NCBI RefSeq assembly: GCF_003952465.1
Contig: NZ_CP034448.1
Location: 1,364,001 to 1,428,000 of the forward strand
Source: Mesorhizobium sp. M1B.F.Ca.ET.045.04.1.1
GTDB lineage: Bacteria > Pseudomonadota > Alphaproteobacteria > Rhizobiales > Rhizobiaceae
Reading direction: 5' to 3'
Length of the DNA: 64,000 nucleotides
Shown here: piece after piece, positions 11,472 to 40,575 of the stretch
How positions within the stretch are numbered: position 1 is the first letter of the stretch
Layout: every line of letters begins with the position of its first letter
Program-made: the position numbers and the translations under genes
The notes under the pieces: generated by a model
The model's database searches: none
Seen by the model: the letters and a program-made list of their open reading frames with translations, nothing else
Told to the model about the DNA's origin: nothing

Positions 11472-12173
11472 ATGATGAAGACTCTCGCCGTCTGCTCTGG
11501 CGGATTGGACTCCGTTTCCCTTGCTCACATGGTGGCAGCGGAGCACGAACTCACCGGCCTTCTATCTTTCGACTATGGCCAACGGCACAGGAAGGAATTG
11601 GGCTTCGCCGCTCTTTGCGCGCAGCGACTGAAGGTCCCGCACCAGATCATCGACATCGGCGAAATTGGCCGTGGCCTTTCCGGCTCAGCGCTGACTGGCA
11701 GTATCGACGTGCCGGACGGCCACTACGCCGAAGACACGATGAAGATTACGGTGGTGCCGAACCGCAATGCCATCATGTTGGCAATCGCCTTCGGTCTCGC
11801 CGCCGCCCACAGCGCCGAAGCGGTGGCGGCGGCCGTGCATGGCGGGGACCATTTCATCTATCCCGATTGCCGTCCGGCCTTCATTGAAGCTTTCCAGACA
11901 ATGCAAGACCGCGCGCTCGACGGCTATGCGCAGATACGCCTCTATGCACCGTATGTGAATCTCGGAAAAGCTGACATTGTTGCGGATGGCGCAAGATACG
12001 GCACCCCGTTTGCTGAGACCTGGTCCTGTTACAAGGGCGGCGTGCGTCACTGCGGACGATGCGGGACCTGCGTCGAGCGGCGCGAAGCGTTCCATCTCGC
12101 CGGGCACGCTGATCCCACCGACTACGAGGACGCCGATTTCTGGCTTGAGGCGCTGCGCAGGAGGCGCGCGTAA
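11472..12173 (+). CDS. queC: QueC, 7-cyano-7-deazaguanine (preQ0) synthase
   Basis: 233 residues from the ATG at 11472. The ATP-pyrophosphatase loop SGGLDSVS is near residue 9, FDYGQRHRKEL near 36, and the C-terminal zinc cysteines are in the CYKGGVRHCGRCGTCVERREAF block. QueC turns 7-carboxy-7-deazaguanine, ammonia and ATP into preQ0, the precursor of queuosine in tRNA and of deazapurine DNA modifications. It is the first gene of a tight queC-queD-queE operon (TAATG overlap with queD). A degenerate copy of its 5' end lies at 36235-36345. Confidence 0.94.
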   Translation: MMKTLAVCSGGLDSVSLAHMVAAEHELTGLLSFDYGQRHRKELGFAALCAQRLKVPHQIIDIGEIGRGLSGSALTGSIDVPDGHYAEDTMKITVVPNRNAIMLAIAFGLAAAHSAEAVAAAVHGGDHFIYPDCRPAFIEAFQTMQDRALDGYAQIRLYAPYVNLGKADIVADGARYGTPFAETWSCYKGGVRHCGRCGTCVERREAFHLAGHADPTDYEDADFWLEALRRRRA

Positions 12174-23861: not shown

Positions 23862-24341
23862 ATGCCTGACCCCGCAATCCCCCCAGCTGTCGCCGAAGAC
23901 GAGGCGGCTCTTTGCACCCCGTTCGTCAAATGCCTCGTGCGGCTGATCCGTTCTCAGGATTCCTATGGCTCGTGGGAACGCAAAGCGGACGCTGAGCTGC
24001 TGGGCGACTTCATCATTACCAAGGAACAGCGCCGAGGGATCCCAATCATCGGAGATCCCGATCCCGACGTGCTGTGGAGGCTCGACAAGTACTACGCCGC
24101 CATCGGGCTTGCGATCGAGGAGCGCTGCGGCCTTATGGCATCGCCGATGATCCAGGTGAGCCATGAGGGTTTTGGTCGGGTGCTTTTCACGACCGGACGG
24201 CTGGTCGTTTTGTCCAAAACGCTGCGCGATGTCCACCGGTTTGGCTTCGAGACGCTCCTGAAGCTCGCCACGGCCGGTACGAAGCTGGTCGACGATGCGA
24301 TTTCAGTCATCGAAACCTTTCCCCACGTGGCGCTGGCATGA
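23862..24341 (+). CDS. NifX-associated DUF269 protein (copy 1 of 3)
   Basis: 159 residues of the NifX-associated family (DUF269). Conserved blocks are [21 protein letters not shown] near residue 20, the [23 protein letters not shown] stretch near 65 and the C-terminal RDVHRFGFE. The family is found next to nifX in most diazotrophs and is thought to help cofactor delivery or nitrogenase maturation; its mechanism is not settled. AGGAGGA precedes the ATG. Two closely similar copies lie at 30376 and 34982; those lack about 10 residues present here (the [14 protein letters not shown] area differs). Confidence 0.93.
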
Positions 24342-28253: not shown

Positions 28254-28758
28254 TTCGTCGATATTGATGATCGGCGGTGGCATTCAGGAAAGATTTCCGC
28301 CTCTGGCGGCAAAAGCGGGACGAGCAATATTCCTACGGCGTCAGATCGCTCTGCTCGCGCTTGAGCAAGGTAGCGTCGCGCGACTCCTGCTTGGCGTGAA
28401 ACAGCAAAGGGCATTCAATCACGATGCAGCTTTACGTGCTGTCGGGCTCAACGCCACGTGGATCGAGCCCAACGCCGCCGTTGGCAACCGCGACGCGAAT
28501 TATGACGCCGGGCCACATGCGGCGGTGGCTGCAAGGGTACCGAGCCTCTCCCGCACTTTCGACCCCATCGCCGAAGTGCGACTACTCCAGGACGCCGAAG
28601 CCGGTCTTATCGCCAGCGGGCCAGCCAAACTCTCACCTTCCTAAACGGCAGCCGCTAAGGTGAGCCGTCGAAAGCCGACATTCAGGTTAACGTCAGCTGG
28701 CCGTGTTAGGGCTCGCTTATTCAAGGCGGTACCGGCGCTTGCCGAAGCTAAGAAGGGT

Positions 28759-28773
28759 TGGCATGCCCTTTGC
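28759..28773 (+). promoter_or_regulatory. Sigma-54 promoter, copy A
   Basis: TGGCATGCCCTTTGC matches the consensus well. The activator site found in copy B is not preserved here; the corresponding area has no TGT-N10-ACA. Confidence 0.65.
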
Positions 28774-28898
28774 CGTGCTTGATGTGCGGCAACACGGTGA
28801 GAGCTCCGCTGAAGCAAGCGAGAGGGAGCAATGCCCTCGAGACCGTGTCCGATTTTGACTGGAAAATATTCCGCGACAAAAGAGACGAAAGGTGTGGA

Positions 28899-30062
28899 AT
28901 GACTTTGGACACCAAGATGGAACTGCGTATGGGGTCCCCGGCTCCTGCGCTGAAAGTGGAGAACTGGCTGCGTGGCGAGCCCCTCACGAGCCTTCGGCCC
29001 GGCAAGGTCTACCTCGTTGAATTTTGGGCGACTTGGTGCCGACCATGTGTCCACGCCATGCCCCATTTGATCGAACTGCAGGAGAAATATAAAGACAGCG
29101 GATTTGAGATTATCGGAGTCGCAGCTTGCGAAAAGGCTGCAACCGCGGACGAAGCGCGGACCAACGTGGATGCCTGGCTGACCGAGAAGTTCCCGAATCT
29201 GAATTATCGGACAGCGTTCGATTGCACTGGCGAAATGAAAAAGCTCTGGCTGGAACCCAGCTCTTCGTTCGGGATTCCCACCTCGTTCGTGGTCGACCGC
29301 GACGGCCACATCGCTTATATCGGCCACCCGGCACCTCTCGATGACGTTTTGCCGAAAGTCCTTAACAGCAGCTGGCGCAGCAGCTATGAAGCGAAAGCCG
29401 TCGATGCAAAGCGAATCTCGCGTGTGCGCGAATCGTCGCTGAGTCAGCCGATATACGCCAAACTTGGGCCGGCGATGCAGGACGAGGATTGGGCAGCGGC
29501 ACTATTGGCCATCGAAGAAGGCCTCGCCGTGATGCCAGACTCTTTTGATTTTCGGCGGGTTCATGCGGATATTCTGCTTCACAAGCTGCGCGACATCAAA
29601 ACCGGCTTGCCGCTTATGCGCGAATTGGTCGAGGACGCGATCAACAAAAAGTTCGAAGCGATGTCTTGGGTGGTGATGGCGCTGAACCAACTCTTCCATC
29701 CCACGATCGACAACTCCCATCTTCCGCATGATGATCGCTTTGCGATGGGCAAGGAGCTCTCCGAACAGATCCTGGAACTTAATCCTCCGCAAGGCGATGG
29801 AGACTTTAAATTCGGGTGTTACTTTCCGGTCGCTCAGTATTATTACGAGAGCGGCAACAAGGACCGGGCGATCGAGTTGATCGAGGTGGCAATCAAATCG
29901 CTGGACCATTCGGAGCCAGTGCCGGACCAAACCAAACAGCGCTACCTCACCTCGTTGCTCCAAGCCCTGGCCAACTACACGGGTGAGCCTGCCTGTCACG
30001 CGGGTCTCTGTGTGGCTCCGCAAAACAAGACTTCCGAAACTCAAAACGCTGTCACTTCCTGA
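28899..30062 (+). CDS. Thioredoxin/TlpA-like domain fused to a TPR-like region, copy A
   Basis: 387 residues from the ATG at 28899 (GGTGTGGA upstream). Residues ~10-160 form a TlpA/ResA-like thioredoxin fold with the redox motif WATWCRPCV near 50 and the cis-proline segment GIPTSFVVDRDG near 130. The rest is helical with TPR-like repeats (AALLAIEEGLAVMPDSFDF, VAQYYYESGNKDRAIELIEVA). No signal peptide or membrane segment is seen, so it is probably cytosolic, unlike most TlpA proteins. The gene opens the block that continues with DUF269, DUF683 and fdxB, which suggests a redox or chaperone role for nitrogenase maturation; this is inference. Copy B has CGPC instead of CRPC. Confidence 0.88.
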   Translation: MTLDTKMELRMGSPAPALKVENWLRGEPLTSLRPGKVYLVEFWATWCRPCVHAMPHLIELQEKYKDSGFEIIGVAACEKAATADEARTNVDAWLTEKFPNLNYRTAFDCTGEMKKLWLEPSSSFGIPTSFVVDRDGHIAYIGHPAPLDDVLPKVLNSSWRSSYEAKAVDAKRISRVRESSLSQPIYAKLGPAMQDEDWAAALLAIEEGLAVMPDSFDFRRVHADILLHKLRDIKTGLPLMRELVEDAINKKFEAMSWVVMALNQLFHPTIDNSHLPHDDRFAMGKELSEQILELNPPQGDGDFKFGCYFPVAQYYYESGNKDRAIELIEVAIKSLDHSEPVPDQTKQRYLTSLLQALANYTGEPACHAGLCVAPQNKTSETQNAVTS

Positions 30063-30224
30063 GCAAGGATCGCGAAGGGCATGACAATTGGAATTGGCAA
30101 ATCCGCCCGCCCAGGCGCACTTCGCAGCAATAACGTCGATGCCGCAAAAGTGCGCGGCTTGCGGCAGGTGGAATTTCCATTGCGTTTACCTCGGGTCGAA
30201 CCGCGGCGCAGGCGTTCGCGCCGC

Positions 30225-30374
30225 GGTGAAAGGTCTCGCATTGGTGGACGTGCTCGAGGTCGGCCACGGGACACTGTTGCGTGGGATCGGCTCGCCCAAG
30301 CCATTCCCCGCCCACGCAAGCGCCCGAACCACACATCGCAGAAAAAGAGATCGTCCTTCAAGAGGAGTACTGAA
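30225..30374 (+). pseudogene. Possible nifX 3' relic, copy A
   Basis: The stretch before DUF269 ends AAAAAGAGATCGTCCTTC...GAGTACTGA, similar to the last ~50 bp of nifX (AAAAGAAACCGTCCTTC...GAGGACTGA). The position also matches, since nifX precedes DUF269 in the main operon. Similarity is limited and the frame is broken. Confidence 0.4.
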
Positions 30375-30375
30375 A

Positions 30376-30819
30376 TTGGGGAAAAGCGAAATTCCTCATG
30401 AACCGGTTGGCCCTGCTGTCCACGGGGACGACGAGGCCCTTGCTTCCCCGTTCGTCAAATGCCTCCTGCGGCTCATTCGTACTCAGGATTCCTTCGGCTT
30501 ATGGGAAGGCCATTCGGATGCCGAGCTGCTGGCCGAGTTCATCATCACCAAGCAACAGCAACGTGCGGTACCCTTTGGCGGCGATCCCGATCCTGACGCG
30601 CTGTGGAGGCTCGACATGTTTTACACCGCCGTAGCGCTTGCGATCGAGGAGCGCTCCGGCGTGTCGACGTCGCCGACAATAGAAATGAAACCCGTGGGGG
30701 CTTCCGGCGGTTGGGCGTTCTGTCGAGACGTCCACCGGTTCGGCTTCGAGACTTTCCGCAAACTTGCTGAGGCCGGTACGAAACTGGTCGACGATGCGAC
30801 TGCAGCCATTGAAGCCTAG
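30376..30819 (+). CDS. NifX-associated DUF269 protein (copy 2 of 3)
   Basis: 147 residues from a TTG start behind AGAGGAG. It has ASPFVKCLLRLIRTQDSFGLWE, DPDPDALWRLDMFYTAVALAIEE and [15 protein letters not shown]. It is almost identical to the protein at 34982 except for the N-terminal ~15 residues and one G/S change, and more distant from the one at 23862. The frame is intact although the downstream genes of this block are broken, so it may still be made. Confidence 0.85.
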   Translation: MGKSEIPHEPVGPAVHGDDEALASPFVKCLLRLIRTQDSFGLWEGHSDAELLAEFIITKQQQRAVPFGGDPDPDALWRLDMFYTAVALAIEERSGVSTSPTIEMKPVGASGGWAFCRDVHRFGFETFRKLAEAGTKLVDDATAAIEA

Positions 30820-30864
30820 CCCGAGATGGAGCGCATCAAGAAACCATTGTTCCAGGAAGGATCT

Positions 30865-31068
30865 ATGTCAGACCTAAATAGGATGAGGAAAAAAGTCTGA
30901 AAGCTCCAGTTGCGTGCAGCTATTGCCAAGATGGCATTGCAGGACCTCGTCGAGGGTCTGCCGGGCAAGTGGGCCGACATACAGGAAGTCGCCGAGAAAA
31001 CCCAAGCCGTTTATGCCGAGTTGGATGTTGCCAAGAGAGAACTCGCTTCAATGAAGAATTTAGGATGA
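30865..31068 (+). pseudogene. DUF683 gene, copy A, interrupted by a stop codon
   Basis: It matches the 67-codon gene at 35466 almost base for base. The CGA arginine codon 12 is TGA here (30898-30900), leaving an 11-residue peptide. The rest of the frame to 31068 is intact. Confidence 0.9.
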
Positions 31069-31379
31069 TGCGCACATTCACCACCCGTGACGGCTCCATT
31101 TGGATGCCGCCGTACCTGACCTCCATCGATAGCAAATCTGCATCGGCTGCTGCCGTTGTTTCAAGGTCTGCTCGCGCGATGTCATGCATCTTCACGGCGT
31201 TGATGATGCGGGTGAAATCCTCGCCCCTGCGATGACGAGGCGACGATTTCGACGGCAAGCTCAATCGCATGATCATGGTTGTCGATGATGCCGGCCGCTG
31301 CATAGGCTGCGGAGCCTGCGGCCGCGTCTGCCCCAAGAACTGCCAGACGCATGTTGCGGCCGACGAGCTCGCAACATGA
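31065..31379 (+). pseudogene. fdxB, copy A, frameshifted
   Basis: The 5' end reads MMRTFTTRDGSIWM and is followed by a net one-base loss near 31135 compared with copy B (agcaagacctgc became agcaaatctgc). The first cysteine cluster is thus out of frame. Further single-base losses are at about 31226 and 31241. The second cluster (CIGCGACGRVCPKNC) survives as sequence only. Confidence 0.9.
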
Positions 31380-31650
31380 TCTGGCGAAAACCAGGGGAGC
31401 GGCGTGCACTTCATCTTTTTGTCGGCTCGTGGGGCTGGTCCTGTGCAGCAATGCGTCGATGGTTTACTTCGCTTTGGATTCGCTCCGTGTGGCAGTCGTC
31501 ACGACGCTGGCCTGTTCGCTGCTGCTTCAGGCCGGCTACTTCGGCCGCGTGCTCTTTCTGATCTGGCAGTCCTCTAGCCGCGCTCGTGGAACTCGCCACA
31601 GGGGCCAGCATGCCGATGGTTACAGGAAAGCTCGGGTACCAGTCGTCTGA
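31351..31650 (+). CDS. SyrA/ExoX-like small membrane protein, copy A (N-terminus altered)
   Basis: The part from LVGLVLCSNASMVYF to GYFGRVLFLIWQSS has the two hydrophobic segments and the GYF...VLFLIW ending of SyrA-like proteins, which affect exopolysaccharide production in rhizobia. A one-base loss near 31405 relative to copy B shifts the start into a different frame, so the 5' end used here (ATG 31351) gives an unrelated N-terminus. Its C-terminus is the complete one, unlike copy B. Function of this copy is uncertain. Confidence 0.5.
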   Translation: MLRPTSSQHDLAKTRGAACTSSFCRLVGLVLCSNASMVYFALDSLRVAVVTTLACSLLLQAGYFGRVLFLIWQSSSRARGTRHRGQHADGYRKARVPVV

Positions 31651-31886
31651 CTCTGATCAACTGCGGAATGCAATTTTCAGCTGTGTCCCGGCTTGGTCGA
31701 ATGCCCAGCATGTGCTGCTGCTTTGATGCGCGGATGACAGGATCAGTGCTCAGACCCACACCAATTTTGGTCACCCTCTGATGACTGAGCTGATCGTATA
31801 GGGAATCTGTGTTCGGCTAACACGCGACCATACCCCTGGGCTGACCGGTGCGTAGCAGGTTCAGGTACTTTTTTGCTGGAGATAGC

Positions 31887-32900
31887 ATGCTGGAAAAATT
31901 CGAACGTTATCCGCTCACCTTTGGACCCACGCCGATCGAGAGGCTCGACCGCCTCGGCAAGCATCTGGGCGACAAGGTGGAAATCTACGTCAAACGCGAG
32001 GACTGCAACTCCGGTCTCGCGTTCGGCGGAAACAAGCTGCGCAAGCTCGAATACATTGTGCCCGACGCGATCGCGTCAGATGCCGATACGCTCGTCACAA
32101 TCGGTGGCGTGCAGTCCAACCATACGCGCATGGTCGCTGCGGTCGCCGCCAAGATCGGCATGAAATGCCTCCTGGTCCAGGAGAGCTGGGTCCCACATGA
32201 TGATGCTGTCTACGACCGGGTCGGCAATATCCTCTTGAGCCGCATCATGGGGGCAGAGGTGCGCCTGGTTGACGAGGGCTTTGACATCGGCATCCGCCGC
32301 AGCTGGGAAAAGGCACTTTATGAAGTCAAGGCAAGGGGCGGCAGGCCATATGCGATACCTGCCGGCGCCTCTGTCCACAAATACGGCGGCCTGGGCTATG
32401 TGGGGTTCGCTGAGGAGGTGCGTGCCCAGGAAGAGCAGCTTGGGTTTGCCTTCGACTATATCGTCGTCTGTACGGTGACTGGTTCAACCCACGGCGGCAT
32501 GCTCGTCGGGTTCGCCAAGGATGGTCGACAGCGCAACGTGATCGGTATCGATGCCTCCGCCATGCCCGCCAAGACCAAGGCGCAGGTGCTTGGCATCGCC
32601 CAAAATACAGCGAAGCTCGTCCACCTCGGAGCGGAAATTGTCGAGGCAGACGTGGTGTTGTTCATGGACTACGCGTACCCGGGTTATGGCGTTCCATCGG
32701 AGGAAACCAAAGAGGCAATCCGTTTGTGCGCGCGGCTCGAGGGCATGATTACGGACCCCGTTTACGAGGGCAAATCGATGCAAGGGATGATCGACCTCGT
32801 CCAGAGGGGCTTCTTTCCACAGGGATCGAGGGTCCTCTACGCACATCTAGGCGGCGCACCGGCGATCAACGGGTACGGCTACACCTTTCGCAACGGCTGA
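31887..32900 (+). CDS. acdS: 1-aminocyclopropane-1-carboxylate (ACC) deaminase
   Basis: 337 residues from the ATG at 31887 with GGAGATAG upstream. It is a fold-type II PLP enzyme: the PLP lysine is in [11 protein letters not shown] near 52, followed by [15 protein letters not shown] near 75 and the phosphate-binding region [13 protein letters not shown] near 200. It cleaves the ethylene precursor ACC to ammonia and 2-oxobutyrate, lowering plant ethylene. In M. loti acdS lies on the symbiosis island and is expressed in bacteroids under NifA control. Here the upstream AGGTACTTTTTTGC has a GG-N9-GC spacing, one short of consensus, so I do not call a promoter. A broken 3' fragment recurs near 40505. 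Confidence 0.96.
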
Positions 32901-33260
32901 CGTTCGGCAGTCTGCGATTCCGCGGTCGCGCTCGAACGTGGGTAGGTAGCGTCGTTCGAGCGCTTGGCTGGAGAAGTGGAGGCAGCGACGGGCATCCACT
33001 AATTGGTACCATTACGTGCTGTCGGTGCTCAACGCCACGCGCATTGAGCGCATGCCGCCGTTGGCAACCGCGAGGCGAATTTTGACTCCGGGGCAAGAAT
33101 CCACACGCGGCGGTGGCGGCACGAGGACCAAGCCGGCGAGTTCGCGCTTTCGAACTGGCGCCAAACTGCCACTGCTCGAGGACCGAGGCCAGTCTAATCA
33201 CAGGCGAGCCGTCCAAGCTCTCAAGAGTGATAGGGCGAAACCCGACAGCGGCAGAAGACA

Positions 33261-33359
33261 TGTCGGGTTCACGACAATCGGCCGCATTTGGCCTCGTGGA
33301 GAATTTCAAAGCATTTCCCGCCGCTTACCGGAGCTGAGGGAATTGGCACCTCCGTTGCA
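33261..33359 (+). promoter_or_regulatory. NifA/sigma-54 promoter of block B
   Basis: TGT-N10-ACA at 33261-33276 is followed 67 bp later by TGGCACCTCCGTTGCA at 33344-33359, a very good sigma-54 match. It drives the thioredoxin-TPR, DUF269, DUF683, fdxB group. Confidence 0.85.
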
Positions 33360-33481
33360 GCTTGATGTGCGGCAACACGGTGAGAGCTTCGCTGAAGCAA
33401 GCCAGAGGGAGCGATGCCCTCGAGACCGTGTCCGATTTTGACTGGAAAATATTCCGCGACAAAAGAGACGAAAGGTGTGGA

Positions 33482-34657
33482 ATGACTTTGGACACCAAGA
33501 TGGAACTGCGTATGGGGTCCCCGGCTCCTGCGATCAAAGTGGAGAACTGGCTGCGTGGCGAGCCCCTCACGAACTTTCGGCCCGGCAAGGTCTACCTCGT
33601 TGAGTTTTGGGCGACTTGGTGCGGACCATGTGTCGACGCCATGCCCCATTTGATCGAACTGCAGGAGAAATATGAAGGCAGCGGATTTGAGGCGGTCGGA
33701 GTTGCCGCCTGCGAACAGGGTCCTACCGCAGACGAGGCGCGGACCAACGTGGATGCCTGGCTGACCGAGGAGTTCCCGAATCTGAATTATCGTATCGGGT
33801 TCGATTACATTGGCGAAATGAACAAGCTCTGGATGGATCCCAGCTCTTCGATTGGGATTCCCACCTCGTTCGTGGTCGACCGCGACGGCCACATCGCTTT
33901 TATCGGCCACCCGGCGGAACTCGATGACGTTTTGCCGAAAGTCCTTAACGGCAGCTGGCGCAGCAGCTATGAAGCGAAAGCCGCCGATGCAAAGCGCATC
34001 GCGCATAACCAACTTGCAGCGCGCGAAATGTCGCTTACCGGGCCGATATACGCCAAACTTGAGCCGGCGATGCAGGCCGAGAATTGGACGGCGGCGCTCT
34101 TGGCCATCGAAGAAGGCCTCGCCTTGATGCCAGACTCTTGTGAGTTCCGGCAGATTCATGCGGATCTTCTGCTTCACAAGCTGCGCGACATCAAGACCGG
34201 CATGCCGGTCATGCGAGAATTGGTCGAGGACGCGATCGACAAAACGTCCGACGCGGTGTCGTGGATGGCCTTGGCCCTCAACCAACTCTTCGATCCCACG
34301 ATGGACAATTCCCATCTTCCGCGCGCGGAGCGCTTTGCGATGGGCAACGAGCTCTCGGAACAGATACTGGCACTCAATCCCCCGAACGGCGATGGCCCGT
34401 TTAAGTACCTCCGGTACCTCCCGGTAGCTCAGTATTATTACGAGAGCGGCAACAAAGATCGCGCAATCGAGTTGATCGAGGTGGCACTGAAATCGGTGGA
34501 CCGGCTGGGGCCAATTCCGGACCACACCAAACAGTACTATCTTACCCCATTGCTCGAAGCACTGGCCAACTACACGGGTGAGCCTGCCTGTCACGCGGAT
34601 CTTTGTGTGGCTCCGCAAAAGAAGGCACCCGAAACTCAAAACGCAGTCACTTCCTGA
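33482..34657 (+). CDS. Thioredoxin/TlpA-like domain fused to a TPR-like region, copy B
   Basis: 391 residues, same architecture as the protein at 28899: thioredoxin fold with WATWCGPCV (the classical CGPC active site), GIPTSFVVDRDG, then TPR-like helices up to the C-terminal ACHADLCVAPQKK. The cysteines ACHADLC near the end are shared by both copies. No export signal. With a full NifA/sigma-54 promoter and intact downstream genes this is probably the active copy. A role in thiol or Fe-S handling for nitrogenase maturation is inferred from context only. Confidence 0.9.
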   Translation: MTLDTKMELRMGSPAPAIKVENWLRGEPLTNFRPGKVYLVEFWATWCGPCVDAMPHLIELQEKYEGSGFEAVGVAACEQGPTADEARTNVDAWLTEEFPNLNYRIGFDYIGEMNKLWMDPSSSIGIPTSFVVDRDGHIAFIGHPAELDDVLPKVLNGSWRSSYEAKAADAKRIAHNQLAAREMSLTGPIYAKLEPAMQAENWTAALLAIEEGLALMPDSCEFRQIHADLLLHKLRDIKTGMPVMRELVEDAIDKTSDAVSWMALALNQLFDPTMDNSHLPRAERFAMGNELSEQILALNPPNGDGPFKYLRYLPVAQYYYESGNKDRAIELIEVALKSVDRLGPIPDHTKQYYLTPLLEALANYTGEPACHADLCVAPQKKAPETQNAVTS

Positions 34658-34824
34658 GCAAGAATCGCGAAGGGACTGACAATTGGAATTGAACACTGGC
34701 CAATCCGCCCATCGAGGCTCTCTTCGCAGCAAGTATGTCGATGCAGCAGGGCGGCGGCTTGCGGCAGGTTGGATTTCAATTGCGTTGACCACCGGTCGGA
34801 TCGCGGCGCAGACAATGTGCGCCG

Positions 34825-34979
34825 CGAATTCGCGCCGCAGGTCTCGCACTCGTGGACATGTCGAGGTCGGCCACGGGGCACTCTTGGGGTTGGCCCGCCC
34901 AAGCCATTCGTCGGCCACGCAAGCCGACCCGGAGTGGGCATCGCAGGAAAAGGAAATCGTACCTCGAAGACGAAGACTG
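34825..34979 (+). pseudogene. Possible nifX 3' relic, copy B
   Basis: It ends GGGCATCGCAGGAAAAGG... and TACCTCGAAGACGAAGACTGA is close to the nifX ending TTCGAGGACGAGGACTGA. It occupies the nifX position before DUF269. Frames are disrupted. Confidence 0.4.
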
Positions 34980-34981
34980 AA

Positions 34982-35419
34982 ATGACGAACAACGAAATTC
35001 CTCCGGTTGGCCCTGCTGTCCACAAGGACGACGAGGCCCTTGCTTCCCCGTTCGTCAAATGCCTCCTGCGGCTCATTCGTACTCAGGATTCCTTCGGCTT
35101 ATGGGAAGGCCATTCGGATGCCGAGCTGCTGGCCGAGTTCATCATCACCAAGCAACAGCAACGTGCGGTACCCTTTGGCGGCGATCCCGATCCTGACGCG
35201 CTGTGGAGGCTCGACATGTTTTACACCGCCGTAGCGCTTGCGATCGAGGAGCGCTCCGGCGTGTCGACGTCGCCGACAATAGAAATGAAACCCGTGGGGG
35301 CTTCCAGCGGTTGGGCGTTCTGTCGAGACGTCCACCGGTTCGGCTTCGAGACTTTCCGCAAACTTGCTGAGGCCGGTACGAAACTGGTCGACGATGCGAC
35401 TGCAGCCATTGAAGCCTAG
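34982..35419 (+). CDS. NifX-associated DUF269 protein (copy 3 of 3)
   Basis: 145 residues with ASPFVKCLLRLIRTQDSFGLWE, DPDPDALWRLDMFYTAVALAIEE and [24 protein letters not shown]. It lies in the intact block between the thioredoxin-TPR gene and DUF683-fdxB, the order DUF269-DUF683-fdxB being common in nif clusters. Nearly identical to copy 2. Confidence 0.9.
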   Translation: MTNNEIPPVGPAVHKDDEALASPFVKCLLRLIRTQDSFGLWEGHSDAELLAEFIITKQQQRAVPFGGDPDPDALWRLDMFYTAVALAIEERSGVSTSPTIEMKPVGASSGWAFCRDVHRFGFETFRKLAEAGTKLVDDATAAIEA

Positions 35420-35465
35420 CCCGAGATGGAGCGCATCAACAAAACCATTGTTCCAGGAAGGATCT

Positions 35466-35669
35466 ATGTCAGACCTAGATAAGATGAGGAAGAAAGTCCG
35501 AAAGCTCCAGTTGCGTGCAGCTATTGCCAAGATGGCATTGCAGGACCTTGTCGAGGGTCTGCCGGGCAAGTGGGCCGACATACAGGAAGTCGCCGAGAAA
35601 ACCCAAGCCGTTTATGCCGAGTTGGATGTTGCCAAGAGAGAACTCGCTTCAATGAAGAATTTAGGATGA
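35466..35669 (+). CDS. DUF683 (CCE_0567-like) small nif protein
   Basis: 67 residues, helical, with MRKKVRKLQLRAAIAKMALQ and DLVEGLP. Small proteins of this family sit between DUF269 and fdxB genes in many diazotrophs and are of unknown function. AGGAAGG precedes the ATG. The stop overlaps the fdxB start, implying coupling. Confidence 0.9.
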   Translation: MSDLDKMRKKVRKLQLRAAIAKMALQDLVEGLPGKWADIQEVAEKTQAVYAELDVAKRELASMKNLG

Positions 35670-35983
35670 TGCGCACATTCACCACCCGTGACGGCTCCAT
35701 TTGGATGCCGTCGTACCTGACCTCCATCGATAGCAAGACCTGCATCGGCTGCTGCCGTTGTTTCAAGGTCTGCTCGCGCGATGTCATGCATCTTCACGGC
35801 GTTGATGATGCGGGTGAAATCCTCGGCCCCTGCGATGACGAGGACGACGATTTCGACGGCAAGCTCAATCGCATGATCATGGTTGTCGATGATGCCGGCC
35901 GCTGCATCGGCTGCGGAGCCTGCGGCCGCGTCTGCCCCAAGAACTGCCAGACGCATGTTGCGGCCGACGAGCTCGCAACATGA
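35666..35983 (+). CDS. fdxB: Nif-specific ferredoxin III (FdxB), 2x[4Fe-4S]
   Basis: 105 residues with two cluster motifs: CIGCCRCFKVC near residue 26 and CIGCGACGRVCPKNC near 80, separated by an acidic insert (CDDEDDDFDG), as in FdxB. It may donate electrons to nitrogenase or to cofactor assembly. ATGA overlap with DUF683 at the start and with the SyrA-like frame at the end. This is the only intact fdxB seen in the window. Confidence 0.95.
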   Translation: MMRTFTTRDGSIWMPSYLTSIDSKTCIGCCRCFKVCSRDVMHLHGVDDAGEILGPCDDEDDDFDGKLNRMIMVVDDAGRCIGCGACGRVCPKNCQTHVAADELAT

Positions 35984-36186
35984 TCTGGCGAAAACCAGGA
36001 GAACGGCGTTGCACTTCATCTTTTTGTCGGCTCGTGGGGCTGGTCCTGTGCAGCAATGCGTCGATGGTTTACTTCGCTTTGGATTCGCTCCGTGTGGCAG
36101 TCGTCACGACGCTGGCCTGTTCGCTGCTGCTTCAGGCCGACTACTTCGGCTGCGTGCTCTTTTTCGCGGACGTCGATGATCTGTAG
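35980..36186 (+). CDS. SyrA/ExoX-like small membrane protein, copy B (C-terminus replaced)
   Basis: 68 residues. It starts at an ATG overlapping the fdxB stop and contains LVGLVLCSNASMVYF and VAVVTTLACSLLLQADYFG, two likely membrane segments. Homology with copy A stops near 36161, and the usual VLFLIW tail is replaced by FADVDDL. SyrA-type proteins influence exopolysaccharide synthesis; whether this truncated form works is unknown. Confidence 0.6.
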   Translation: MIWRKPGERRCTSSFCRLVGLVLCSNASMVYFALDSLRVAVVTTLACSLLLQADYFGCVLFFADVDDL

Positions 36187-36234
36187 AACTGTTCATTCGC
36201 TCCGCAGAGGGCCGGCGAATCCAATCTCTTCCTA

Positions 36235-36345
36235 AGCCCGTTGGCCGTAATCGAAAGACACGAGGCCGGCGAGTTCGTGCTCAGCTGCCACAGTGCTAGC
36301 AAGGGAACGGAATCCAATCCCGGAGCAGATGGCGAGAGTTGAGCG
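36235..36345 (-). pseudogene. Degenerate copy of the queC 5' end
   Basis: Minus-strand translation gives TLAICSG, then VAAEHELAGLVSFDYGQR, matching the start of QueC (TLAVCSG...VAAEHELTGLLSFDYGQR). The pyrophosphatase loop is damaged by a frameshift and the gene ends after about 37 codons. Confidence 0.8.
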
Positions 36346-36762: not shown

Positions 36763-38574
36763 TCAGGCCAGGCCCTTCGCGAGTTCCAACGCCTGCCGTT
36801 CGAAGAGGCGGCGGTAAATGCCACCATCGAGATTGATCAGGGCGGCATGATCGCCGTCCTCCATGATGCGGCCACGGTCGAAGACGAGCAGCCGATCGAG
36901 CGAGCGGACGGTCGACAGCCGGTGTGCGATGACGAGTGTGGTTCGACCCACCATCAACCGATCCACCGCTTGTTGAATGAGCACCTCGGATTCCGAATCG
37001 AGGCTCGATGTGGCCTCGTCCAGAATCAGGATCGGCGCGTTCGCGAGGAAGGCGCGCGCGATCGCCACGCGCTGGCGCTCGCCGCCGGAGAGCTTCAAAC
37101 CCCTTTCGCCGACCAATGTCCCATAGCCCTTCGGCAGGGGCGCGATGAATTCGTGGGCACTTGCCAGCCGTGCCGCTTGCTCGATCTCGGCCTGGCTCGC
37201 GCCAGGCCGGCCATAGGCGATGTTCTCGGCAAGCGACCTGTGAAACAGGATCGGCTCCTGCTGCACGATCGCGATCTGCGAACGAAGGGACTCTTGGGTC
37301 ACCTCGGAGACGTCCTGACCGTCTATCAGGATCCGGCCGCCGCTCAGGTCGTAGAGTCTCTGGATCAGCTTCACGAATGTTGTCTTGCCGGAACCGGAGG
37401 GTCCAACCAACCCAACCCTTTCGCCAGCTTCAATCGACAGCGAACATTCGCTATAGAGCGGCAGGGGATGGTTGGCGTAGCGGAAGTGGACGTTCTCGAA
37501 ATCGATACGGCCGTTCGTGATCCGGATCGGCTTGGCCTCTGGACGATCGGCAACATCCACCTTCTGATTGTGGATGGCCACCAGTTCTTCCATATCATTA
37601 ACCGAGTGCTGCACGTTGCGGACATGCATGCCGGCATCACGCAGATAGCCCTGCAGGACGATGAAGGACGTGAGAACATATGCTATCTCGCCCGGCGTTG
37701 CCTGTCCATGCGACCACAGAAGCAGGGCATATCCGACCACCGCCACCCTGAGCGCAACCAAAGTTACGCCTTGGGTTGAGCCGATGATCGTTCCGCGCAC
37801 CCAGCTCCGGCGCGCGCGGTGCCGCCATTTCGTCATGATATTTGCAAGCCGCTCGTCTTCGCGAACCTCTGCGCCGAAGCCCTTGACCACAGCGTTGCAA
37901 CTGACCGCGTCCGCAAGCGCGCCGCTGAGCCTTGTGTCCCATCGGTTGGCAAGGCTCGCCGCTGGCGCGACATAGCCGAGCGACAGCGAAATCGAAAACG
38001 CAAGGTAGACGAGAGAGCCGCAAGCAAAGATCACGCCCATGACCGGCCAGTGCCAGCCGAGCAGCACCGTCGAGCCGATCAAGATGACAAACGACGGGAG
38101 CAGCGTGACGAGTATCGTGCTGTTGAGGAGGTCGAGCGCCCACATGCCGCGCGTTATCTTGCGCACTGTCGAGCCGGCGAAGCTGTTTGCATGCCAGTCT
38201 GTCGAAAAACGCTGCACATGATGGAACGCTTCGGTCGCGACATCGGAAATCATTTTCAACACCAGGTCGTTCAGGCCAATTAAGGCGACGTGGCGCATGG
38301 CAATGGAACCGAGTGCCAATGCAATCGGTACAGAGAATGCTGCAACAGCTGAATCCGAAGCTGGTGCTGCCGCATTAGCAGCACGAGAAACAGCGTCGAT
38401 GAGTCGGCCAGAATAGAGCGGCATCAACACGTCAGCCAGCGTGGAGGCGAGCATCGCGGTCATGATGATCGCGAGCCGGGCCGGCTGCCTGTTCCAGAGG
38501 CGAACAGTGAAGGCGAAAACGTCGCGACAAGTGGCGCCGCGCCCATGGACGGGGAAACGTCTCATAGTTTCCAA
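36763..38574 (-). CDS. ABC exporter, fused membrane and ATPase domains
   Basis: 603 residues; the second Met three codons in (38565) is an alternative start. The N-terminal half is a six-helix ABC exporter membrane domain. The ATPase domain has GRIDFENVHFRYANHP near 360, Walker A GPSGSGKTT near 394, the signature LSGGERQR near 500, Walker B ILILDEATSSLD and the HRLSTVR switch histidine. Members export lipids, peptides or drugs; the substrate is unknown. A short fragment resembling its linker occurs at 41925-42055. No partner gene is adjacent. Confidence 0.92.
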   Translation of the reverse strand: METMRRFPVHGRGATCRDVFAFTVRLWNRQPARLAIIMTAMLASTLADVLMPLYSGRLIDAVSRAANAAAPASDSAVAAFSVPIALALGSIAMRHVALIGLNDLVLKMISDVATEAFHHVQRFSTDWHANSFAGSTVRKITRGMWALDLLNSTILVTLLPSFVILIGSTVLLGWHWPVMGVIFACGSLVYLAFSISLSLGYVAPAASLANRWDTRLSGALADAVSCNAVVKGFGAEVREDERLANIMTKWRHRARRSWVRGTIIGSTQGVTLVALRVAVVGYALLLWSHGQATPGEIAYVLTSFIVLQGYLRDAGMHVRNVQHSVNDMEELVAIHNQKVDVADRPEAKPIRITNGRIDFENVHFRYANHPLPLYSECSLSIEAGERVGLVGPSGSGKTTFVKLIQRLYDLSGGRILIDGQDVSEVTQESLRSQIAIVQQEPILFHRSLAENIAYGRPGASQAEIEQAARLASAHEFIAPLPKGYGTLVGERGLKLSGGERQRVAIARAFLANAPILILDEATSSLDSESEVLIQQAVDRLMVGRTTLVIAHRLSTVRSLDRLLVFDRGRIMEDGDHAALINLDGGIYRRLFERQALELAKGLA

Positions 38575-40460: not shown

Positions 40461-40504
40461 CGCTCGATGAAGGATGATCGACGGCATCCAGAAAGCTTCT
40501 CTCC

Positions 40505-40575
40505 GGCGGGTTCGAGGGTGCTGCGCGCGCATCTCGGCGACGGGCCAGCGACCAACGGTTGAGGCTACATCTCCG
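40505..40575 (+). pseudogene. Fragment of the acdS 3' end
   Basis: About 70 bp match the end of acdS (the [20 protein letters not shown] region) with substitutions and an in-frame stop. It follows, rather than precedes, the promoter copy, so the local order is rearranged. Confidence 0.65.

Follow-up and report, generated by a model that had tools for sequence, protein, structure and literature searches.

Genes of the kind considered here have been described on the Mesorhizobium symbiosis island ICEMlSymR7A. In the passages of PMC3538637 that deal with them, DUF683, fdxB and a syrA gene form the operon msi276-msi275-msi274 behind a NifA-type promoter, acdS (msi273) and an L-lysine 6-monooxygenase gene (msi280) are near in numbering, and lacZ fusions to msi276 and to acdS were dependent on NifA2. 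Deletion of msi276-msi275-msi274 left the strain Fix+, and that island differs from the locus described below in having one such cluster, plus a second fdxB (msi337) elsewhere (PMC3538637). Here we analyse a 64,000-nucleotide stretch of Mesorhizobium sp. M1B.F.Ca.ET.045.04.1.1 (the window; positions 1,364,001-1,428,000 of a one-contig genome of 7.78 Mb), in which, directly 3' of genes read as nifK, nifE, nifN and nifX, an intact acdS is flanked by two forward-strand copies, A (28368-31557) and B (32916-36162), of a block that comprises a tlpA-like gene, a DUF269 gene, a DUF683 gene (Rop-like in Pfam), fdxB and a syrA-like gene.

Reiterated nifHDK operons of Rhizobium etli are reportedly an instance of duplicated nif DNA that is subject to recombination and gene conversion; those are structural genes in repeats that lie far apart, whereas the present repeats carry an accessory block, are spaced at 4.6 kb and are decayed in parts. 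In the group II symbiosis integrative and conjugative elements (ICESyms) of Lotus symbionts, the fdxB2-syrA2 paralogue is a partial second copy of the same block, but one that is dispersed, lies 253 bp behind nodB and has two genes; the passage on fdxB2-syrA2 makes no mention of conversion or reciprocal decay (PMC7643969). The Lotus-type loci L164 and L165 differ from the window in retaining only about 40 codons of tlpA and a degraded DUF269. The ICESym genes traR/traI and qseM/qseC are likewise duplicated, with copies lost in different lineages, but according to the section of PMC8627217 concerned they serve transfer regulation and are not nif genes. The duplication studied here was not named in any title or abstract opening among the matches listed in a literature search that lay mostly outside subscription papers. 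The kind of event is known; what merits testing is how it affected acdS.

We consider it likely that the locus records the segmental duplication, long ago, of an accessory nif operon under NifA control, followed by conversion in both directions and by reciprocal loss. The operon (tlpA-like, DUF269-2, DUF683, fdxB, syrA-like) would have been duplicated once, with copy B placed behind acdS in a Mesorhizobium symbiosis island; the direct repeats would then have exchanged sequence, from B to A in an ancestor and from A to B over DUF269 in the window genome, and the copies would have decayed in different parts under relaxed selection, such that A lost its NifA site and FdxB and DUF683 came to be supplied from copy B under NifA control.

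Comparison of the window with itself by blastn aligned 28777-31557 with 33360-36162 at 90.4% over 2819 columns and 28432-28512 with 33012-33092 at 88%, in agreement with an initial annotation of this DNA that placed two same-direction copies around acdS. Base by base, the alignment is a mosaic in which similarity is not limited to short domains. Per 100 columns, identity is 55-73% at 28392-28769, 94-98% at 28770-29069, 76-93% in the remainder of tlpA, 69-76% in the spacer between tlpA and DUF269 and 94-100% at 30440-31534, with none thereafter; in 70-bp steps, it is 43-87% upstream, 93-100% at 28780-29059, directly after the -12 element, 71-97% in the remaining tlpA, 65-89% in the spacer and 94-100% at 30460-31557, where similarity ends. 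The near-identical 3' halves of the initial annotation were thus confirmed, but the 5' end is not simply diverged as it had suggested, as about 290 bp just 3' of the -12 element are 97% identical between A and B. The same mosaic is present in 15 of 16 aligned genome pairs (upstream 69.5-74.5%, 5' tract 96.3-96.9%, remaining tlpA 86.3-87.0%), with 3' halves of 96.9-99.8% identity except for 91.4% in G081, which has an N gap; the pair of G001 deviates, with 88, 86, 90 and 95% in the same four parts. This alternation exceeds chance: when the variable columns were shuffled 10,000 times, no shuffle gave an identical run of the observed length in any of the eight pairs, out of the 16, that were tried. 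Genes that are dead in A match B as closely as live ones, and so the near-identity is not due to constraint.

Other Mesorhizobium islands share the doubling. In a survey of 146 genomes of the genus, in which copies were counted as doubled when verified on one contig, 97 had some tlpA match and 17, all species representatives, carried both copies (the window genome, G091, G083, G093, G125, G114, G099, G090, G081, G080, G085, G095, G067, G001, G075, G074 and G032). G071, with its copies on two contigs, is included as an eighteenth doubled genome in the junction counts, and G084, G066, G100 and G079 resembled doubled genomes in the survey and stand outside the count of 17. Named doubled relatives include Mesorhizobium sp. 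M7A, M8A and M4B strains and M. mediterraneum, where the copies are split by an insertion; "Ca" in strain names presumably denotes Cicer arietinum. In G032 the copies are 45.6 kb apart; in M. mediterraneum (L018 from 14339 onward; contig 31 of G032), an insertion with genes read as IS21-like splits the upstream region of copy B.

Where the block is single, as at loci L012, L013 and L014, the order is tlpA-DUF269-DUF683-fdxB-acdS followed by an ATP-binding cassette (ABC) transporter gene. Relative to this arrangement, copy B fills the gap between acdS and the transporter gene and replaces about 58 bp (L012 14217/14276), with 3-5 bp of microhomology at its ends. All 18 doubled genomes have the left-junction motif (32916-32927) and 15 of them the right-junction motif, and neither was found in 12 single-copy loci; such shared junctions indicate that the doubling was one old event. 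At the right junction, the exceptions are G125, whose contig ends before it, and G075 and G074, in which copy B extends a further 9 bp with A-type sequence and reaches a transposase-like gene. In both of the latter genomes this gene is followed by a 141-bp acdS fragment, 96.5% identical to acdS, which is likely to be the remnant of a second acdS from a tandem duplication; gene and fragment together lie at L153 8895-9709 and L154 8965-9779, respectively. As tandem copying of the block together with acdS would leave a second acdS behind B, we prefer a path in which block and acdS were duplicated in tandem and the second acdS was later lost. The right junction, near 36162, cuts the syrA-like frame of copy B (36064-36186), and the truncation of this gene therefore arose with the rearrangement itself. 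The initial annotation had noted this truncation in copy B, alongside the full promoter and all maturation genes.

Trees built separately from the two parts of the block disagree. They were rebuilt from 37 rows, without the gap-bearing G093, G091, G081, G095, G083 and G080, of a 49-row alignment that leaves out L122, L126, L129, L130, L131 and the split copy A of G071; G001 was kept despite a spacer gap in its copy B, the 3' half of which is contiguous with the ABC transporter flank. In the tlpA tree, A groups with seven single-copy rows and G001_A (support 100/99) and B lies apart with G001_B (97/99); in the tree of the 3' half, A, B and G001_B form a clade (100/99) and G001_A falls among single-copy rows. 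The approximately unbiased (AU) test on tlpA gave p 4.7e-6 for A and B as one clade and p 3.7e-4 for A, B and G001_B, and on the 3' half p 2.8e-38 for the tlpA-type grouping and p 0.013 for B with G001_B without A, although the tested groups were named after the first tree, which flatters these values. Different blocks of the same pair thus conflict, and their placement, with tlpA split and 3' halves united, suggests that B-type sequence overwrote the 3' half of A in an ancestor, after the split from G001. Exchange in the other direction may be visible in the window, where copy B is B-type at the positions of A 30403 and 30706 but A-type in between, at 30421, 30675, 30677, 30681 and 30683. The last four of these A-type states are derived; none of the 8 other gap-free B rows listed and none of 10 single-copy rows has them, and they are present in 8 of 9 other gap-free A rows and in G085_B. 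These states are suggestive of an in-cis A-to-B conversion tract over DUF269, at about A 30421-30697 (B 35021-35297). Homologous gene conversion, in both directions, between direct repeats 4.6 kb apart would accordingly account for how alike the copies are in the short 5' tract and the 3' half.

Duplication with complementary decay, as the initial annotation had proposed, is displayed more fully by the relatives than by the window. In the window, copy A retains open frames for the tlpA-like gene (28899-30062, 387 aa) and DUF269 (30391-30819), has a stop after 11 codons in DUF683 (30865-31068), a frameshifted remnant of fdxB (31065-31379) and a syrA-like gene uncut by the junction (31459-31650, 63 aa; PF11089 SyrA, 43.4 bits), and has lost its NifA site; the open frames, the lesions and the lost site are as first annotated. 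In copy B, the tlpA-like gene (33482-34657, 391 aa) and DUF269 (34988-35419) are open and DUF683 (35466-35669; PF05082) and fdxB (35666-35983; ferredoxin III, nif-specific) are intact. Nine doubled genomes are free of gaps and have both copies in full (the window genome, G099, G067, G075, G074, G114, G090, G085 and G032); tlpA is open in both copies of all nine. DUF269 is open in all nine A copies and broken in five B copies, by two different one-base lesions; conversely, DUF683 is broken in A and open in B in all nine (that of G090_A had no start-pattern match in one reading and 5 codons in another), and fdxB is broken in seven A copies and open in every B copy. Each of the nine genomes has at least one intact copy of tlpA, DUF269, DUF683 and fdxB, and in five of them A is without DUF683 and fdxB and B is without DUF269. 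It would appear that, under relaxed selection, each copy was free to shed genes still provided by its counterpart. A spread of dead alleles to both copies by conversion was considered for G093, G091, G081 and G095 and was dropped as evidence, since one of the copies in these drafts has a gap of about 100 N within it or at its end; the 227-bp "insertions" first read there are such gaps.

The two copies also differ in their promoters. Copy B has a NifA-type upstream activator site, TGTCGGGTTCACGACA (33261-33276), and a sigma54 -24/-12 promoter, TGGCACCTCCGTTGCA (33344-33359), with 0 mismatches, and like single-copy relatives it carries the combined pattern TGT-N10-ACA and TGGCAC-N5-TTGC; copy A has neither this combination nor TGT-N10-ACA, and its -24/-12-like core, TGGCATGCCCTTTGCC (28759-28774), reads TGGCAT, from which weak activity may be possible. 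Upstream of tlpA, TGT-N10-ACA is present in 17 of 17 B copies, 15 of 15 single copies and 1 of 17 A copies, as well as in 12 of 12 further single copies (the sites of L122, L126, L129, L130 and L131 were read separately, and G071_A was left out), and the TGGCAC core in 17 of 17, 14 of 15 and 1 of 17, respectively. In 16 of 17 A copies the activator site was lost through a 14-bp deletion. Because TGT-N10-ACA is common by itself (15 in the window against 7.7 expected), the argument lies in its conservation at one place.

These changes bear on acdS (31887-32900), which scored 568.8 bits against the 1-aminocyclopropane-1-carboxylate (ACC) deaminase profile TIGR01274 (cut-off 392). The ratio of nonsynonymous to synonymous divergence (dN/dS) of acdS, where nonzero, is 0.10-0.26, and this constraint argues that the gene is still in use; in G083 it is without its N-terminal part. 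A stretch of 171 bp upstream of acdS that is kept in relatives (site 31829/31830) is absent from 15 of the 18 doubled loci and from none of the 12 single-copy loci. Twelve non-Lotus sequences were scanned for sigma54 sites in the gap between syrA and acdS, and in 11 of them, including the window, nothing scored above shuffled sequence; the exception, L020, matches at 9 of 11 positions, and 9 of 300 shuffles were as good. With no convincing site there in relatives, L020 aside, the tlpA operon may end with acdS. Against this stand the length of the gap, some hundred bases, and two weak terminator-like matches within it, of a kind of which the stretch has four against 2.3 expected by chance. Were acdS the last gene of a single NifA operon, which is the weaker part of our argument, loss of the activator site could have uncoupled it from NifA. 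With the NifA-competent promoter now behind acdS, the activator site in front lost in nearly all A copies and the remaining leader shortened in most doubled loci, we tentatively suggest, at somewhat less than even odds, that the duplication rewired acdS, which in nodules of strains carrying the doubled island would be silent or independent of NifA. Two candidate acdS promoters were rejected. The 17-base pattern of an R7A-like promoter occurs in 14 of 144 genomes, and its site in L161-L165, 713-714 bp upstream of acdS, does not align with the window region; TGTCTTTGATCACACA lies 70 bp 5' of acdS in G085, G001 and G032, but the nine single-copy or other relatives scanned lack it, and it was taken as chance. 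Relics of acdS were also observed: the window has a 3' relic at 40497-40568 behind a luxR-type gene (24 aa, 71%, E 0.004), similar relics lie in L012 (18712-18783), L011 (17263-17373) and L114 (10614-10724), and in L119 there is a decayed second fdxB together with acdS.

The tlpA-like proteins, with the active-site motifs WCRPC in A and WCGPC in B, match Redoxin in their N-terminal thioredoxin halves (Pfam, 56.1 and 50.0 bits for the two copies). The Pfam tetratricopeptide repeat (TPR) model had no match in the second half, and to that extent the label thioredoxin-TPR of the initial annotation did not hold; a structure model from a 24-row alignment (mean predicted local distance difference test, pLDDT, 76.6) nevertheless shows a helical array at residues 163-365, mostly at pLDDT 85-98 from residue 181, with a weaker thioredoxin half (mostly 47-82). 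In Foldseek searches with this model, the first half matched structures of DsbE, ResA and TlpA, and E. coli YbbN, a thioredoxin-TPR protein, came at rank 18. At 48.5 and 49.7 against a cut-off of 230 for the rhizobial TlpA family NF047696, the product is a thioredoxin-fold relative and not that TlpA. Three DUF269 genes lie inside 12 kb, as first annotated, and are the only ones found in the genome. All three match PF03270, but the full-length paralogue adjoining nifX, DUF269_1 (23871-24341, forward strand; 163.8 bits), exceeds the cut-off of the NifX-associated family TIGR02935 (214.9 against 132.05), whereas DUF269-A and DUF269-B, at 129, fall below it; both have an altered internal segment relative to DUF269_1, the same as in the single-copy relatives shown. 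For FdxB (TIGR02936, cut-off 80.55), copy B scored 130.1 and copy A 69.3.

Of the rival histories, the most serious is that the unusual allele of A, or its 3' half, came from another symbiosis island by recombination between genomes, which we regard as possible but rather unlikely. The upstream and spacer sequences of A form a deep lineage not seen in the sampled single-copy genomes, and ICESym recombination is reported as extensive in the part of PMC8627217 that treats it. The near-identical 3' tract, though, extends to the very end of the A-B homology (31557/36162), and window B holds states otherwise confined to A copies and G085_B, which is most easily explained within one genome. A recent tandem duplication with fast 5' divergence, the other option left by the initial annotation besides gene conversion, could account for the 94-100% identity of the last 1.1 kb, but is very improbable given that the junctions are shared across many species, among the 17 species representatives, that the tlpA parts fall in different allelic clades with AU rejection of their union, and that their synonymous divergence is 0.26. 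Conversion is the option that the data support. Even less credible is that copy A and its frameshifts are an artefact of assembly or sequencing. Seven drafts do have N gaps at the repeat, but the window genome and four other doubled genomes (G099, G067, G075 and G074) are single-contig and carry both copies, and DUF683-A is broken in all nine gap-free doubled genomes.

Copy A might also be kept for dosage or for a distinct TlpA-A function, with WCRPC and fast protein evolution as marks of a new role. The tlpA-A frame is open in 17 of 17 A copies, and its dN/dS to the nearest rows is 0.58-0.61, against 0.21-0.37 in four comparisons among G001_A and single-copy rows. We find this improbable, however, since tlpA-B likewise has an elevated dN/dS (0.58 against G001_B, 0.43-0.47 against single-copy rows) and the rise is thus not peculiar to A, A has lost its activator site, and departures from strongly conserved columns (seven in A, three in B) fit relaxed constraint. 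Several points weigh against duplication with conversion and reciprocal loss, the history that we favour. The case for conversion is drawn from sequence, and an allele imported from another island could yield the same tracts. G085_B shares the four A-type states and G090_A is without them, and exchange was thus more tangled than one event. No intact fdxB was found in G091, G093 and G081 (9 of the 12 genomes searched have one), and DUF683 is broken in both copies of G093 and G095; if real, this double breakage in G091, G093, G081 and G095 breaks the rule of complementarity, although these four genomes were not counted because each has a scaffold gap of about 100 N within a copy or at its end. 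The lesion events that look independent number only about six, so that the complementarity could be luck. Finally, the Fix+ nodules formed after deletion of the orthologous DUF683-fdxB-syrA genes in R7A, as given in the portion of PMC3538637 on this mutant, suggest that selection to keep one copy may be weak.

Some further repeats and homologues were noted. An inverted repeat pair (36162-36339 and 11481-11664, 79% identical) begins at the right end of copy B, and other direct repeats of about 180-220 bp, 84-90% identical, lie at 13080-13256/15014-15189 and 9578-9792/44938-45153. A further tlpA-like paralogue, 72% identical, is encoded on the opposite strand some 80 kb downstream of the block (G000:C1:1481224-1482349). 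In Bradyrhizobium (L026, L027, L029, L038 and L058), tlpA-like homologues are followed by an ABC transporter gene 57-69% identical to window 36763-38574.

For annotation of this genome, the only intact fdxB and DUF683 genes found are those in copy B. More generally, the locus offers a natural series in which a duplicated nif accessory block has been homogenised and dismantled on a mobile symbiosis island, and it raises testable questions, namely whether a good allele is preserved through conversion, and whether the NifA regulon of this island lineage no longer includes ACC deaminase.

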